Assembly: GCA_013696965.1 (NCBI GenBank)
Contig: JACCXN010000088.1
Coordinates: forward strand, 1-7,457
DNA from: Bacteroidota bacterium
Lineage (GTDB): Bacteria; Bacteroidota; Bacteroidia; JACCXN01
Direction: 5' to 3'
DNA length: 7,457 nt
Position 1 is the stretch's first letter; every line of letters starts with the position of its first letter. Below the pieces are notes generated by a model. It did no database searches. It saw nothing but the letters and a program-made list of their open reading frames with translations, and had not been told where the DNA came from. Below, piece by piece: positions 2,052-7,423 of this stretch. Both the position numbers and the translations under genes were made by a program.

Positions 2052-2167
2052 GCAAGCGTATTAGACGACAAAACAACCATTAAACTGACAGACAATTATC
2101 GAAATATTGGGACAACATATAAACTTAACAGGGGACTTTTTTCCGACACGACAAACCAACGCTTCTT

Positions 2168-2210
2168 GTTTTATTTTTTTGCCGACCCGCACTTTTTTAA
2201 AAACAATTTT
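2168..2210 (+). repeat. Left arm of a 5-kb-spaced inverted repeat
   Basis: Two blocks, GTTTTATTTTTTTG (2168-2181) and TTTTTTAAAAACAATTTT (2193-2210), separated by 11 nt, recur exactly as reverse complements at 7231-7244 and 7201-7218, where the gap is 12 nt. Together they give 32 identical positions over about 43. The arms bracket the four-gene operon and could be element ends. The AT-rich homopolymer content lowers confidence that they are functional. Confidence 0.5.
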
Positions 2211-2222
2211 ATCCAGCCGCAT

Positions 2223-2289
2223 AAGTGGCACATTTGGTTTTGCCCCGACACAAAAAGCCGACCCTTCGGCAAAACCAAAAGAGCCACTT
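2223..2289 (+). repeat. Long imperfect hairpin upstream of the operon
   Basis: The arm at 2223-2244 pairs with 2268-2289 at 20 of 22 positions, with a 23-nt loop. A competing short hairpin, GCCGA-CCCT-TCGGC, sits at 2257-2270. The structure is followed closely by GCCGACCC at 2293-2300. It lies between the integron and the operon promoter. It could terminate transcription coming from the cassettes or be part of an element end; it lacks integron core boxes. Confidence 0.65.
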
Positions 2290-2308
2290 TTTGCCGACCC
2301 ACTTTTGA

Positions 2309-2375
2309 AATTCTGCATTTTTATATAGAAATTCTAAATAATAGTATATCTTTGCTAAACAAATACGTTAATTCT
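2309..2375 (+). promoter_or_regulatory. Repeated AATTCT motif around the operon promoter (possible operator)
   Basis: AATTCT occurs at 2309-2314, 2330-2335 and 2370-2375, with start spacings of 21 and 40 bp. The last two copies are part of an 11-nt repeat, AATTCTAAATA at 2330 and AATTCTAAGTA at 2370, with one mismatch. They flank the -7 box, and the third copy abuts the start codon of the XRE gene. This position suits autoregulation by that protein. AT-richness makes chance recurrence possible. Confidence 0.35.
2347..2354 (+). promoter_or_regulatory. Bacteroidota-type -7 promoter box
   Basis: TATCTTTG fits the TAnnTTTG -7 consensus known from Bacteroidota. It lies 25 bp before the XRE start codon, which would give a short leader of about 20 nt. 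No clear TTG-type -33 element is seen at the expected spacing, so a regulator may be needed or the promoter may be weak. It is the best candidate promoter for the operon. Confidence 0.5.
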
Positions 2376-2379
2376 AAGT

Positions 2380-2601
2380 ATGACAGTATTAGGAGAAATA
2401 TTATCTAAAAAGTCAATTAAAAAGGCTGATGTCTCTCGTAAGACAGGCATCAGCACTTCAAGACTTAGTCAATTGAGCAACAATGAAACAACAAATTTAA
2501 AAGTTGAAGAACTTTATCTTATTGCATTAGCTATTGACGTTCCTCCAGTTGAGATTCTTTCTAAAGTTTGTAATCATTTAAAATTAAAGAAAGTAAAATG
2601 A
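2380..2601 (+). CDS. XRE-family helix-turn-helix regulator (controller-like)
   Basis: This 73-aa protein consists of little more than one lambda-repressor/Cro-type HTH domain. The HTH lies at about residues 13-36, with KADVSRKTGIS as the first helix and turn and TSRLSQLSNNE as the recognition helix, followed by the usual LKVEELYLIALAIDVPPVEIL helices (40-60). The C-terminal tail is Lys-rich. The size and position, directly before a DNA methyltransferase gene with a 4-nt ATGA overlap, match controller (C) proteins of restriction-modification systems, which time methylase and effector expression. A -7 box lies just upstream and AATTCT repeats flank the promoter, so autoregulation is plausible. 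The DNA-binding role is firm; the controller role is inferred from context. Confidence 0.85.
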   Translation: MTVLGEILSKKSIKKADVSRKTGISTSRLSQLSNNETTNLKVEELYLIALAIDVPPVEILSKVCNHLKLKKVK

Positions 2602-3836
2602 GCAAACTTAATTTCATAGACTTATTTGCTGGTGCATCGGGAATGTCCGAAGGTTTTATAAAAGCCGACCTAAACCCAATTGCTCACATAGAAATGAATG
2701 AGGAGGCTTGCTTCTCAATAAAAACAAGGGCTGCATATCACTATCTTGCCGAAAATAAGAAGATAAAAATTTACAACGACTATCTACAAGGTAAAATCAC
2801 AAGGACTGATTTATACAAACAAGTTCCTTCAGAAATTTTAGATTCAGTTTTGAATGTTGAAATCACTGATGATTCAATCAAATCTCTTTTTTCTGAAATA
2901 AAAAAACACCAAAAAGGAAAGCAAGTTGACTTGATAATTGGTGGTCCGCCTTGTCAGGCTTATTCTTTATTAGGTAGACACCAAAAAGAAATTGAAAACG
3001 ACCCGAGAAATAAACTCTACATTCAATACGGGAGATTCCTAAAAGAATTTCAACCTAAAGCATTTGTTTTTGAAAATGTGCCGGGTTTGCTAAGTGCAAA
3101 CAAAGGCGAACATTTCAAAAATTTAAAAATTTATTTCAAGAAGCTAGGTTACGAAGTTTATCATAAAACACTTGACGCTTCTGATTATGGAGTTTTGCAA
3201 GCAAGAAAAAGAGTAATTATAGTCGGTTGGCTTAAAGAAAATGATTTCGGTTTTCCTGAAATTGAAACTCTTCCGAAAAAATATAAAGTGCAAGATGCAC
3301 TTAATGATTTACCGAAATTACAACCAGGAGAAGGCGAAAGAGTAATGAAATATGAAAGCAAAAAAAATAAATACTTGCAAAAATTTGAGTTGAGAAATGG
3401 AGTTGACTTTGTGACGCAACACATTTCAAGACCTCATAACCAAAGAGATTTAGCGATTTATGAATTTGCAATTGAGAAATGGAATGAAGGAAATGTGAGA
3501 GTGAAGTATACCGACTTACCTAAAGACTTGCGGACACATAAAAACATGACTTCTTTTTTAGACCGCTTTAAAGTAGTAAATGGTGAAGGCGTATCACATA
3601 CTATTGTTGCGCACATAGCCAAAGACGGGCACTATTACATTCATCCCGACATTGAGCAATGCCGTTCAATATCTGTGAGAGAAGCAGCAAGGCTGCAATC
3701 ATTTCCTGACGATTTTTACTTTGAAGGGTCAAGGTCAGCAGCATTTAAACAAATTGGCAACGCAGTGCCACCACTTATGGCTTATGCTATTGCTCAAAAA
3801 ATGAAAGAATTATTATGTCTGAAAACACAAAAATAA
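2598..3836 (+). CDS. DNA (cytosine-5-)-methyltransferase
   Basis: This 412-aa enzyme transfers a methyl group from S-adenosylmethionine to C5 of cytosine in a specific DNA site. All main motifs are intact: motif I FIDLFAGASGMSEGF (6-20), motif IV GGPPCQAYS with catalytic Cys119, motif VI ENV (160-162), motif VIII QARKR (201-205), motif IX SVREAARLQSFPDDF (359-373) and motif X GNAVPP (387-392). The target-recognition region should be about 215-350 and ends with SHTIVAHIAKDGHYYIHPD; the target site cannot be read from sequence. Compared with short enzymes such as M.HhaI (Cys81), about 40 extra residues lie between motifs I and IV (about 48-105). It overlaps the XRE gene by 4 nt and the next gene by 22 nt, pointing to coupled translation. 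No cognate endonuclease is recognised nearby. Confidence 0.95.
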   Translation: MSKLNFIDLFAGASGMSEGFIKADLNPIAHIEMNEEACFSIKTRAAYHYLAENKKIKIYNDYLQGKITRTDLYKQVPSEILDSVLNVEITDDSIKSLFSEIKKHQKGKQVDLIIGGPPCQAYSLLGRHQKEIENDPRNKLYIQYGRFLKEFQPKAFVFENVPGLLSANKGEHFKNLKIYFKKLGYEVYHKTLDASDYGVLQARKRVIIVGWLKENDFGFPEIETLPKKYKVQDALNDLPKLQPGEGERVMKYESKKNKYLQKFELRNGVDFVTQHISRPHNQRDLAIYEFAIEKWNEGNVRVKYTDLPKDLRTHKNMTSFLDRFKVVNGEGVSHTIVAHIAKDGHYYIHPDIEQCRSISVREAARLQSFPDDFYFEGSRSAAFKQIGNAVPPLMAYAIAQKMKELLCLKTQK

Positions 3837-6031
3837 AAGACGGGTTTTATAAAATCCGACCTGCTGGAAGGCATATAATTACAATTGGTAGAGACCTTAT
3901 AAAGGATAAATATGCAGCAATTGTAGAGTTAGTAAAAAACGCCTATGATGCAGATTCACCTAATTGCACCATTTCACTTCTTCCATTTGAAAAAGGAAAT
4001 ACAAAAGGTATTAGAGTAATCGTAAAAGATGAAGGGCATGGTATGACCTTTGAAACTGTTACTGATAAGTGGATGGTTCCTTCCACTGATGACAAATTGA
4101 AAAGAGAGATTAGTCCAAAAGGACGAATGATGCAAGGTAAAAAAGGAATAGGAAGATATTCAGCATCTATTATTGGTGACGACTTAGTGTTGCAAACGAT
4201 TGATGAAACAGGCGACTTAACAACATTGTATTTGATTTGGGAACATTTTCAAAATGCTCAATACTTATCTGATGTTGATGTGTTAATTGAAAATTTTACA
4301 ACTAAGCAAAAGAGTGGAACAGAAATAATTATTGTAGGTGATGAAAGCCATTTGAATGATTGGAACATTAAACAAATTCAAAATCTAAAATTCGAGTTAA
4401 AAAAATTAATTCCACCAATTGACAAAAAAGAACACAAAATTGAAAGTGATACTGATAATTTTAAAATCAGCTTAAAGCTTGGAAATTTCCCTTATGAGGG
4501 CTATTCAAACCTCACAGAAGATATTGAGCCGTATCCGCTATTTGATTTGTTTGATTACAGAGTAACAGGCACAGTATCAAAAGAAGGAATTGCCAAATTA
4601 AAATTTGAAAATAAACGAGTTAAAAACTCACCTATTGAAATAATCAAAGAGTTTAAAGTTCTTCTAAATCAAGACAAGAATAAAAATGCAGAAGCATATT
4701 GCGGAGAAGTAAAAATAGATTTTAGGGTTTTTGACAGAGATCCGAGTTCAATTGATGGACTTATTGAAAGAGGATTGAAAGACCCAATAACTGGTGAGTA
4801 TGTTGGGAGACGAGAAGCAAGAATTATTTTAGATACTTTCAATGGTATTGGAGTTTATAGAAATGGATTTAGGCTTAGGCCGCTTGGAGATGCTGGTTAC
4901 GATTGGCTTTCGCTTGACAACGAGAGGGTTCAAAACCCTTCCTTGAAAATTGGTTGCGACCAAGTAATTGGATTCATTCACATCGAATCTGAAGAGAAAT
5001 CTAAACTTGAAGAAAAGGCGGCACGAGACGGAATAAAAGAAACTGCTGAATATTTTGGACTAAAAGAAATTGTTAAACAGGTTTTAAAGGAACTTGAAAA
5101 CAGACGATTCATTTACAGACAAAGTGTTGGACTTGGACGAAGCAACAGGGACTTGAGTGAGAAAATAAATGGATTATATAATTTCAAAGACCTAAAAGAG
5201 AAAATCAATAAAGAGTTAGACAATCTTGGAATTGAGGAAAAGAAGAAGGAGAAAATCAACAAGATAATTTCTGAAAAAGAGGAAAAGAACAACAAAATTG
5301 CGGATGAATTAAAACAGGCAATTGCTTTATATCAAGGTCAGGCAACAGTCGGAAAAATTATCAATATCGTTTTACACGAAGGGCGAAAACCTCTAGGGTA
5401 TTTTAAAAATCAAATACCATTAATTAATGAATGGAAGGAAGAATTGGTAACACATTACGACCAAAATACTCTTGACAAAATTCTAAACCGACTTTCGGTA
5501 ATTGATGAGCAGACTAATATTTTCATAAAACTATTCGGCAAACTTGACCCATTATCTTCCAAAAAGAGAGACAAGAAAAAAGACTTTGTTTTAAGGAAAA
5601 TTATTGAAAATGTTAAAGATGTTTTCCTTTCAGAACTAAGCAATCAATCAATAGAGTATAACATTGACTGCGATGAAAAATTGACCTGCTTCGGTTGGCA
5701 AGAAGATTTCTACATTGTGCTAACCAACCTTGTTGACAATAGTATCTATTGGTTACAAAGTATTGAGGACAGGGCAAAACAAATCAGCATTAAGGCTTAT
5801 GAAGAAGACGACCTTTTGATTATAGAATATAAAGACAACGGGCCTGGAATTGAAAAACATCTTATTGAAAGTGAGGTAATATTTGAACCTGAATTCAGTA
5901 ACAAAACAGGCGGTGGCTCTGGTTTAGGACTTGCAATTGCAGGTGAAGCAATTGGAAGAAATGAAGGAGAATTAAAAGCTATTTATTCTGAAAGTGGTGC
6001 ATTTTTTAAAATAGAAGTTCCTATACAATAA
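3815..6031 (+). CDS. Dual GHKL protein: Hsp90/MORC-like ATPase fused to a histidine-kinase core
   Basis: This 738-aa soluble protein has two separate GHKL nucleotide-binding modules. The N-terminal one shows an N box AIVELVKNAYDAD (35-47), DEGHGM (72-77) and a glycine lid QGKKGIGRYSA (107-117), as in Hsp90, MutL and prokaryotic MORC-like ATPases. A middle region at about 340-410, with RNGFRLRPLGDAGYDWLSLD and KAARDGIKET, resembles the transducer part of those ATPases. A Lys/Glu-rich probable coiled coil spans about 443-505. The C-terminal part is a histidine-kinase core: an H box HEGRKPL with candidate phospho-His521, N box LTNLVDNSIYWL (636-647), G1 DNGPGI (674-679) and G2 GGGSGLGLA (699-707). 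There are no membrane segments, so it should sense a cytosolic signal. It overlaps the methyltransferase gene by 22 nt and precedes a receiver-domain gene by 6 nt. GHKL ATPases near restriction-modification genes are known; the fusion to a kinase core suggests signalling to the receiver protein. Confidence 0.85.
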   Translation: MSENTKIKDGFYKIRPAGRHIITIGRDLIKDKYAAIVELVKNAYDADSPNCTISLLPFEKGNTKGIRVIVKDEGHGMTFETVTDKWMVPSTDDKLKREISPKGRMMQGKKGIGRYSASIIGDDLVLQTIDETGDLTTLYLIWEHFQNAQYLSDVDVLIENFTTKQKSGTEIIIVGDESHLNDWNIKQIQNLKFELKKLIPPIDKKEHKIESDTDNFKISLKLGNFPYEGYSNLTEDIEPYPLFDLFDYRVTGTVSKEGIAKLKFENKRVKNSPIEIIKEFKVLLNQDKNKNAEAYCGEVKIDFRVFDRDPSSIDGLIERGLKDPITGEYVGRREARIILDTFNGIGVYRNGFRLRPLGDAGYDWLSLDNERVQNPSLKIGCDQVIGFIHIESEEKSKLEEKAARDGIKETAEYFGLKEIVKQVLKELENRRFIYRQSVGLGRSNRDLSEKINGLYNFKDLKEKINKELDNLGIEEKKKEKINKIISEKEEKNNKIADELKQAIALYQGQATVGKIINIVLHEGRKPLGYFKNQIPLINEWKEELVTHYDQNTLDKILNRLSVIDEQTNIFIKLFGKLDPLSSKKRDKKKDFVLRKIIENVKDVFLSELSNQSIEYNIDCDEKLTCFGWQEDFYIVLTNLVDNSIYWLQSIEDRAKQISIKAYEEDDLLIIEYKDNGPGIEKHLIESEVIFEPEFSNKTGGGSGLGLAIAGEAIGRNEGELKAIYSESGAFFKIEVPIQ

Positions 6032-6037
6032 AATACA

Positions 6038-7111
6038 ATGAGCAAAGTAAACATCCTAATTATTGAAGACGAAGCACCACAAATTCAGGTTTACGAAGAT
6101 GTGATTTCTCAATACAACAAAAAAAACGAATTGCAAATTGTTTATACAATTTGCAAAAGCTATGCAGAGGGCGAACAAGCCTTGAATACTCCATACTATG
6201 ATGCTGCAATCATTGATTTAAAACTTTCAAATACAGAAGAATTAGAAGGAAAGAAATTAGTTGAATCTGTTTATCAAAAAATCAGAATTCCAATAATAAT
6301 TTATTCAGGTAGCATTGCACAAGTTGACGACATAAAAGAAAATGCTCTCTTGAAGAAGAAATTAAGAACGGAACAACTTTCAGATATTTTACTTGAAATA
6401 ATAAAGATTTACAATACCGGCATTACAAGATTTCTAAGACCATTTGGCACTATAGACAATAACCTCACTAAAATATTTTGGAATCATCTTTCAAATGATT
6501 TAGATGTTTGGATTAAACATAACAACCCAAATAACTTACTTCGCTACATCCTTTCTCATTTTCAAGAGCATTTAGACATAAATCTTCAAGGAGACTTTGA
6601 GGAATACCATCCGTTTGAGGTTTACATAAAGCCTCCGATAAAGAAAAATTTACATACTGGAGATTTAATAAAGTTTAATGAAGAGTATTATGTTATCCTT
6701 ACTCCTGCTTGTGACATTGTCATTCAAGGTTACAAAGACCTTGATGGTGGTGTAAAAGAACCAATAAGAAATTCAGACAACATCATAATTGTAAAAGCAA
6801 ATGATTTCAACTACAAAATTTCCTGCTTAAATAAAAAGAACGAAGTAGATAAAAATAAGATTGAAAGTTTTGTGAAAAATAAAAATGCACGCTACCATTA
6901 TTTACCACCTTTTGAATCAAATAATGGTTTAACAATTGACTTTCAGGATATAACCTCTATTCCATTTTCTAACGACCTTGAAAGAGTAGCAACAATTTCT
7001 TCTCCCTTCATTAAAGACATAATTTCAAGATTTTCAAATTATTTCTCAAGACAAGGACAGCCTACATTTAATCAAGACGCTATAATTGAAGAACTATTTA
7101 ATAAAAAATAA
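6038..7111 (+). CDS. Response-regulator receiver protein with an unrecognised C-terminal domain
   Basis: This is a 357-aa protein. Residues 1 to about 125 form a CheY-like receiver: acidic residues E10, D11 and E12 after the first strand, a phospho-acceptor Asp60 in AAIIDLKLS, and Ser90 in IIIYSGS. The last part is degenerate and no clear KP motif is seen, though LLKKK (104-108) may supply the Lys. The remaining 230 residues have no recognised DNA-binding domain. They include a helical stretch (about 140-185), GDLIKFNEEYYVILTPACDI (208-227), a central strand-rich part, and an end pattern ERVATISSPFIKDIISRFSNY followed by RQG (about 315-340). I see no convincing nuclease signature. The start ATG lies 6 nt after the kinase stop codon and in the same frame. 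It is probably the phosphorylation partner of the upstream kinase; the output function is unknown. Confidence 0.75.
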   Translation: MSKVNILIIEDEAPQIQVYEDVISQYNKKNELQIVYTICKSYAEGEQALNTPYYDAAIIDLKLSNTEELEGKKLVESVYQKIRIPIIIYSGSIAQVDDIKENALLKKKLRTEQLSDILLEIIKIYNTGITRFLRPFGTIDNNLTKIFWNHLSNDLDVWIKHNNPNNLLRYILSHFQEHLDINLQGDFEEYHPFEVYIKPPIKKNLHTGDLIKFNEEYYVILTPACDIVIQGYKDLDGGVKEPIRNSDNIIIVKANDFNYKISCLNKKNEVDKNKIESFVKNKNARYHYLPPFESNNGLTIDFQDITSIPFSNDLERVATISSPFIKDIISRFSNYFSRQGQPTFNQDAIIEELFNKK

Positions 7112-7120
7112 TCAACGCAT

Positions 7121-7186
7121 TTTGCAAGCACAATTAAAAACCGCACAAGCCAACACACGACCAAAGTTTTTAATAGAACTTGCAAA
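7121..7186 (+). repeat. Long imperfect hairpin downstream of the operon
   Basis: The arm at 7121-7141 pairs with 7166-7186 at about 18 of 21 positions around a 24-nt loop. It starts 10 nt after the stop codon of the receiver gene and is immediately followed by GCCGACCC, as the upstream hairpin nearly is. It may end the operon transcript, but the large loop and missing U tract make it an atypical intrinsic terminator. Confidence 0.55.
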
Positions 7187-7200
7187 GCCGACCCAAAAGA

Positions 7201-7244
7201 AAAATTGTTTTTAAAAAATTTCCACCGCTTCAAAAAAATAAAAC
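7201..7244 (-). repeat. Right arm of the 5-kb-spaced inverted repeat
   Basis: AAAATTGTTTTTAAAAAA (7201-7218) and CAAAAAAATAAAAC (7231-7244) are exact reverse complements of the blocks at 2193-2210 and 2168-2181, in mirrored order with a 12-nt instead of 11-nt gap. Neither arm is flanked by an evident target-site duplication at these exact limits, and no transposase lies between them. Confidence 0.5.
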
Positions 7245-7333
7245 GCCCGACACACAAGCCAGACAAAAAAGCACTCTATAAATGACACAAACGGACGACA
7301 TAAAAATGGTTGTAACCCACGACAGACAAAGAA

Positions 7334-7375
7334 GTCGAGTAGGTAAAGGGGAATCTCACCCCTAAACCTCTCACA
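7334..7375 (-). ncRNA. Group II intron domain VI with bulged branch-point A
   Basis: On the minus strand GAG and AGGU pair with ACCU and CUC, leaving one unpaired A (complement of T7340), with GGGG/CCCC forming the upper stem. The bulged A is seven bases from the intron end, where the lariat branch point is expected. The 3' splice site is predicted between 7334 and 7333. Confidence 0.85.
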
Positions 7376-7409
7376 GAACCGTGCTTGATACTCTCGCATC
7401 ACACGGCTC
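7376..7409 (-). ncRNA. Group II intron domain V (catalytic hairpin)
   Basis: This 34-nt hairpin has the standard domain V plan: an 8-bp lower stem starting GAGCCGUG and closing CACGGUUC, a bulge (U opposite AAG), a 5-bp upper stem GAUGC/GUAUC and a GAGA tetraloop of the GNRA type. The AGC catalytic triad is present at its second to fourth bases. This is the active-site hairpin of the ribozyme. Confidence 0.93.
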
Positions 7410-7423
7410 TTCTTAACAAGACG

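Follow-up and report, generated by a model that had tools for sequence, protein, structure and literature searches.

The four co-directional genes at positions 2380-7111 of the window, by which we mean the whole analysed stretch of 7,457 nucleotides (contig C88 of a 3.86-Mb Bacteroidota genome in 106 contigs), form a real, conserved and functionally coherent module, and on balance we regard it as probably a mobile restriction-modification-type defence module, the effector of which would be gated by a cytosolic phosphorelay. The open reading frames, all on the forward strand, bear out the layout given in the preliminary description of this DNA: the gene of an HTH protein overlaps that of a C5 DNA methyltransferase by 4 nt, the methyltransferase gene overlaps the kinase gene by 22 nt, and a 6-nt gap separates the kinase gene from the receiver gene. 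The residues named there were also right, namely C119 in the PPCQ motif of the methyltransferase, H521 of the kinase and D60 of the receiver protein, and all catalytic residues are intact.

Products of the four genes

The first gene (2380-2601, + strand) encodes an XRE/Cro-type HTH protein (HTH_26, 1e-10) that is probably a controller, and the second (2598-3836, +) a C5 cytosine DNA methyltransferase (DNA_methylase, 1e-65) with intact PPCQ and ENV motifs, whose best PADLOC match is DrmMII (2e-172). A sister locus (L051) in a second genome belonging to the same class has copies of both genes: its HTH protein shares the whole amino acid sequence of the window protein (100% identity; dN 0, dS 0.40), and its methyltransferase is 94% identical (dN 0.031, dS 1.07), with a dN/dS of about 0.03; the methyltransferase is under strong purifying selection.

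The third gene (3815-6031, +) encodes a kinase of 738 residues, which had been described as a dual-GHKL protein. Pfam does recognize two GHKL domains in it (HATPase_c_3, 4.6e-18; HATPase_c, 3e-17), and between them stands an H-box in which the histidine is followed by an acidic residue (H521-E522). In an AlphaFold2 model built on the window sequence together with relatives from viral contigs, 14 sequences in all (pLDDT 80), residues 15-435 align with the ATPase cassette of MORC3 (Z 21.8, 301 residues, rmsd 3.9) and with Hsp90 (Z about 20), and residues 586-738 align with the catalytic domain of ThkA (Z 22.2, 146 residues, 1.6 Å); a Foldseek search with the model also returned SMCHD1 and MORC2, with long alignments fitting the N-terminal half. 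The predicted phospho-acceptor His521 (in LHEGR; codon at 5375-5377, +) lies, in the model, on a long helix of the kind seen in DHp domains, and it is invariant in alignments of 15 and 14 homologues, in which the motifs of both ATPases are likewise invariant or nearly so. Taken together, the alignments with MORC3, Hsp90 and ThkA, the DHp-like helix around His521 and the invariant motifs indicate that the protein, as modelled, combines a MORC/Hsp90-like clamp with a complete histidine kinase, in the order GHKL ATPase module, DHp and catalytic ATP-binding domain. The count of two GHKL domains thus stands, but the description is too narrow for an ATPase clamp joined to a true histidine kinase.

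The fourth gene (6038-7111, +) encodes a response regulator of 357 residues. Its single sequence gives a weak Pfam hit to Response_reg (0.004, below the cut-off), and a profile of its family matches receiver domains in the PDB at 2e-8. In a model with a mean pLDDT of 70 over the whole protein, residues 2-134 align with PDB receivers (Z 16, 2.0 Å over 124 residues). The aspartate equivalent to the predicted phospho-acceptor Asp60 (codon at 6215-6217, +) is invariant in 79 proteins encoded downstream of related kinases. The residues expected of a two-component pair are all present, that is, the phospho-accepting histidine and the N and G boxes in the kinase, and the acidic pair and the aspartate in the receiver.

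The receiver is followed by a C-terminal output domain (residues about 190-345; 6605-7072, +), which is predicted, with only moderate confidence, to be mainly beta with a C-terminal helix. Alignments and stand-alone relatives show its conserved features to be TP-x-C-D and a terminal S-R-x-G (C225-D226, R338 and G340 in the window protein), although Cys225 is absent from some relatives. The same motifs also end a second group of receivers, that of L051 included, which BLAST comparisons leave separate from the first group, and the domain occurs alone in proteins of 184-186 residues. Stand-alone proteins of this type were seen at L036:9557-10114(-) in a Bacteroidota genome and at L071:7914-8465(+) at the end of a viral contig. 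The output domain matched no family in Pfam or PHROGs, DNA-binding families included, and its profile found nothing credible among PDB sequences; neither a nuclease motif nor a known fold was found for it, the fold-search list for the whole model being filled by receiver-domain matches. A PemK/MazF-like barrel, considered from the motif spacing, was not supported, as hhalign probabilities against PF02452 members stayed at 0.16-0.23 %, no better than those of column-permuted controls, and in the run against 25 PemK proteins the probability was 0.16 %, with a score that 36 of 100 permuted controls reached and a reversed control surpassed; a match of the same kind to the C-terminal region of BbrUII had a probability of only 0.04-0.06 %.

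Conservation of the neighbourhood, the effector position and pair exchange

The comparison covered 85 kinase loci, drawn from plasmids, from genomes of Bacteroidota and from viral contigs and picked by the similarity of their kinases and not by the presence of a methyltransferase. A methyltransferase gene lies at most three genes upstream or four genes downstream in 77 of them (38 C5-methyltransferases by profile and 39 amino-methyltransferases by motif, the latter class being approximate), and the other eight have none nearby. The 50 genes immediately upstream of the kinases have overlapping Pfam assignments to DNA_methylase (15), Eco57I (14), N6_Mtase (14) and N6_N4_Mtase (8), and in 79 of 84 cases the kinase gene is directly followed, at a distance of a few bases or with an overlap, by a gene whose product has the invariant aspartate at the receiver position. 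The neighbourhood of methyltransferase, kinase and receiver recurs in Bacteroidota, Campylobacterota, Fusobacteriota and viral contigs, and as judged from these sequences the recurrence is more than chance.

The order of the genes varies around the kinase-receiver pair. It is Vsr, C5-methyltransferase, kinase and receiver on a Hymenobacter plasmid, and both methyltransferase-kinase-receiver-Vsr and Vsr-methyltransferase-kinase-receiver are found in Bacteroidota genomes. On the Campylobacter conjugative plasmids shown by the search, the receiver gene adjoins a C5-methyltransferase gene, convergently in the one that was fully read; a Fusobacterium plasmid was also among the matches, and the pair in Enterobacter mori has no adjacent methyltransferase. 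Queries built from alignments identified kinase relatives encoded by 65 viral contigs, and such queries were needed to find them, since a first scan of the viral contigs returned no relatives; a scan of genome contigs with a single kinase sequence gave one distant relative only, and a collection of phage genomes two partial matches only. The preliminary description had proposed a search for conservation of the gene order in unrelated genomes, and had named kinase and receiver homologues normally occurring without the methyltransferase as the finding that would speak against it. The arrangement recurs across phyla, at some loci beside DISARM or Mza genes, and the linkage in 77 of 85 loci supports the earlier view that the methyltransferase, the GHKL-ATPase/histidine kinase and the receiver effector are one functional unit.

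Among individual loci, we noted the kinase-receiver pair on 41 Campylobacter plasmids (L008 among these), a module directly beside the DISARM genes DrmA and DrmB (L031), and a Hymenobacter module directly followed by the MzaB, MzaC and MzaD genes (L006).

The gene that follows the receiver differs with the type of receiver. At 17 loci the receiver protein consists of the receiver only (209-248 aa), and a nuclease-type gene comes next, which Pfam assigns to HNH in 11 cases and to the metallo-beta-lactamase (MBL) fold in five, a sixth MBL gene being annotated as such and split by an insertion sequence. Receivers that carry the TPxCD domain, including that of the window, have no separate nuclease gene, and some have Vsr; the Vsr gene seen beside several homologues is absent from the window. 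Because receiver-only homologues precede HNH or MBL genes and TPxCD receivers lack such a partner, we infer that the output domain occupies the nuclease position of the related loci. The nuclease partners in the sister loci favour defence, though not decisively, over epigenetic signalling, both of which had been offered earlier. In a group of 13 viral-contig loci (the L105 group), receivers of 339-410 aa are followed by a protein of about 230-316 aa that is neither HNH nor MBL, which is possibly another effector type.

The DNA of L051 is 87% identical to positions 2167-3819 of the window and 93% identical to positions 7118-7256, whereas its kinase has only 26% identity to the window kinase and the two receiver proteins cannot be aligned by BLAST. 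The exchanged block, as delimited by flank identity, spans 3820-7117 (+); its left breakpoint coincides with the start codon of the kinase, and its right breakpoint falls shortly after the receiver stop codon. On this comparison, the kinase-receiver pair is exchanged as a unit behind one methylase. Both contigs are short and a chimeric join is conceivable, but it is disfavoured because the breakpoints fall at gene borders and the flanking identity resumes. Over 18 loci with a C5-methyltransferase, the kinase and receiver distances co-diverge with r 0.94, whereas those of kinase and methyltransferase have a Pearson correlation of 0.44 and a Spearman correlation of 0.01.

Relation to described systems

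The module had been thought undescribed, which turned out not to be the case. The 2021 paper of Bellieny-Rabelo et al. (PMC8011034) predicts cytosolic kinases with the architecture HATPase_c_3, DHp and HATPase_c paired with receiver proteins (HEF_HK/Response_reg_2), often with a C5-methyltransferase upstream, and suggests regulation of restriction-modification (R-M) systems and NTP sensing; DefensePredictor 2026 (PMC13092281) lists HATPase and REC among the domains of predicted, unvalidated defence systems. In the accessible portions of the literature, we found no experimental test of the pairing predicted in 2021. The window kinase has the same architecture and adjoins a receiver gene, with a C5-methyltransferase near the pair, as commonly found upstream in the HEF_HK/Response_reg_2 systems, where Vsr is also near. 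However, membership in these families by profile was ruled out: PF19191 (HEF_HK) had no match at E<=1 to the window kinase, and none in its own genome or among eight homologous kinases, and PF19192 (Response_reg_2) had no match at E<=1 to the window receiver, and none at the locus or on three homologue-bearing plasmids. Since its proteins fail both published Pfam models, the module is a distinct variant of a kind already predicted. The H-box reads HEG in the window kinase and HEF in HEF_HK; the kinase has 738 aa, whereas strong HEF_HK matches lie in open frames of about 966-1006 aa, and the receiver protein has 357 aa compared with 600 aa for the founding Response_reg_2 protein. Beyond the HEF_HK picture, the relatives of the window module document alternative effectors and amino-methyltransferase partners. 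The prior literature, as far as its text was accessible, contained neither the pattern at the effector position, nor the output domain common to both receiver groups, nor the clean cartridge exchange; a keyword search of the accessible text of the BREX-related 2026, NTP-dependent conflict-system and jumbo-phage surveys did not find the arrangement either.

The N-terminal module of the kinase links it to several other GHKL proteins. It is akin to the N-terminal GHKL ATPase of the BbrUII/HgiDII restriction enzymes (BLAST 1.5e-9), but the kinase scores only 44.2 bits against their model NF050001, over the N-terminus alone, compared with a cut-off of 550, so it does not belong to that family. These enzymes end, in one chain, in a D...ELK, PD-(D/E)xK-like motif, whereas the window has a histidine kinase and a separate receiver. 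Iyer et al. 2008 (PMC2292703) placed paraMORCs in R-M neighbourhoods, and the window kinase has the GHKL domain and following transducer-like module of MORC and paraMORC proteins; a helicase or RE-fold nuclease gene, as expected beside these, is not found in the window. In the paraMORC3 or Shedu GHKL type, too, a GHKL ATPase is proposed to gate an effector; its representative VcSduA (PMC12137116) has a GHKL N-terminus, and its phage defence needs both ATPase and nuclease residues. However, VcSduA restricts phage directly as a single protein that includes a DUF4263 nuclease, and no kinase, receiver or methyltransferase is described for it.

The likeness to DISARM lies in the DrmMII match of the methyltransferase and in the one homologous locus beside DrmA and DrmB; the window has no DrmA, DrmB or DrmC gene and is not a DISARM system. 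That to Mza is one of neighbourhood only, as MzaB/C/D follow a Hymenobacter homologue and none occurs in the window. None of the PADLOC matches seen bears the name of Detocs, a defence system of sensor, receiver and effector genes. The DHp/catalytic-domain and receiver folds and the key residues are those of canonical two-component systems such as HK853/RR468 and PorX, from which the module differs in its MORC/Hsp90-like ATPase sensor, presumably soluble, and in an operon that includes a DNA methyltransferase.

Candidate mechanism, alternatives and flanking DNA

In the defence module that we favour, the HTH protein would probably tune expression, and the C5-methyltransferase would, judging by its motifs, mark self DNA. 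The N-terminal MORC/Hsp90-like clamp would act as the sensor, most likely of unmarked DNA or of a complex on invading DNA, and its ATP-driven closure and dimerization, as in MORC and Hsp90, could align the C-terminal histidine kinase. The kinase would then autophosphorylate His521, from which the phosphate would move to the receiver's Asp60, the residues for both steps being present, and phosphorylation may release or assemble the TPxCD...SRxG domain, which would probably attack DNA or otherwise arrest the infected cell. Several observations count against this reading, namely that the output domain showed neither a nuclease motif nor a known fold, that some relatives lack Cys225, that eight of the 85 loci and the Enterobacter mori pair have no neighbouring methyltransferase gene, and that the window has no Vsr gene; a purely transcriptional role for the receiver protein is less likely but conceivable. 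The module looks like the same sensor type as in BbrUII/HgiDII and VcSduA, here wired to its effector by a phosphorelay. More tentatively, and with more doubt than conviction, we suggest that the MORC-like clamp reads DNA methylation and that the His-Asp relay activates a new effector class, TPxCD...SRxG, carried in interchangeable kinase-effector cartridges. The MORC clamp family is tied to the silencing of methylated DNA in eukaryotes. If true, restriction would have a signal-transduction step inserted between recognition and cleavage, and this would account for the action of a MORC-like ATPase that has no nuclease itself. The family of the window module is large, with members on plasmids, in genomes and also in viral contigs; its effectors (HNH, MBL and TPxCD) swap, as do the kinase-receiver cartridges behind a fixed methylase, so each proposed step could be tested by exchanging parts.

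The least improbable alternative, though still an unlikely one, is a conventional signalling pair in which the kinase, as a soluble protein, responds to a cue from inside the cell, such as a nucleotide level, and the receiver protein regulates the expression or activity of the adjacent methyltransferase or of a host R-M system, the view offered in PMC8011034 with its R-M regulation and NTP sensing. Receiver proteins usually act on transcription and the operon is led by an HTH gene, as this would have it; however, the output domain matches no DNA-binding family, the homologous receivers are receiver-only and lie beside nuclease genes, and the kinase-receiver pair exchanges freely behind one unchanged methyltransferase. 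That same separability of the pair from the methyltransferase, together with the Enterobacter pair without an adjacent methyltransferase and the stand-alone output-domain proteins, agrees with abortive infection, in which the ATPase-kinase would sense a phage protein or phage-induced change, the output domain would be a toxin, and the methyltransferase would be an independent self-protection or anti-restriction gene retained within one mobile module. We consider this improbable and rank it next, since a methyltransferase, of the C5 or the amino type alike, is near the pair in 77 of 85 loci and the effectors of the sister loci are DNA-cutting types. A coincidental or decaying cassette without joint function is very hard to credit even in repeat-bounded, cassette-like mobile DNA near a group II intron end, given the intact catalytic residues, the methyltransferase dN/dS of about 0.03, the overlap of the reading frames and the recurrence of this neighbourhood in different phyla.

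The four-gene module is flanked by an imperfect inverted repeat, the upstream arm of which (2168-2210) is 79.5% identical over 44 columns to the reversed downstream arm (7201-7244), with a core of 18/18 nt; the core is also present, inverted, at both ends of L051. The repeat could be the ends of a mobile element or hairpins. Upstream of it, the window contains two palindromic elements of 127 nt (1354-1480 and 1922-2048) that are 97% identical and have GCCTAAC.../...GTTAGGC-like ends, and a partial third copy at about 4-118. These elements resemble integron attC sites, and further copies occur in the same genome on contigs C4 (two), C34 and C14; on C14 a gene resembling an integron integrase, whose score of 104 bits falls short of the model cut-off, lies about 1.3 kb from the element copy. 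The repeats bound two units of one gene each, one (139-1338) encoding a lipoprotein-like protein with no family match and the other (1513-1878) a membrane protein of the SdpI/YfhL family (1.7e-15). Near the right border of the module, at the contig end, lies a group II intron catalytic domain V/VI (7334-7411, -; Rfam RF00029, 62.9 bits).
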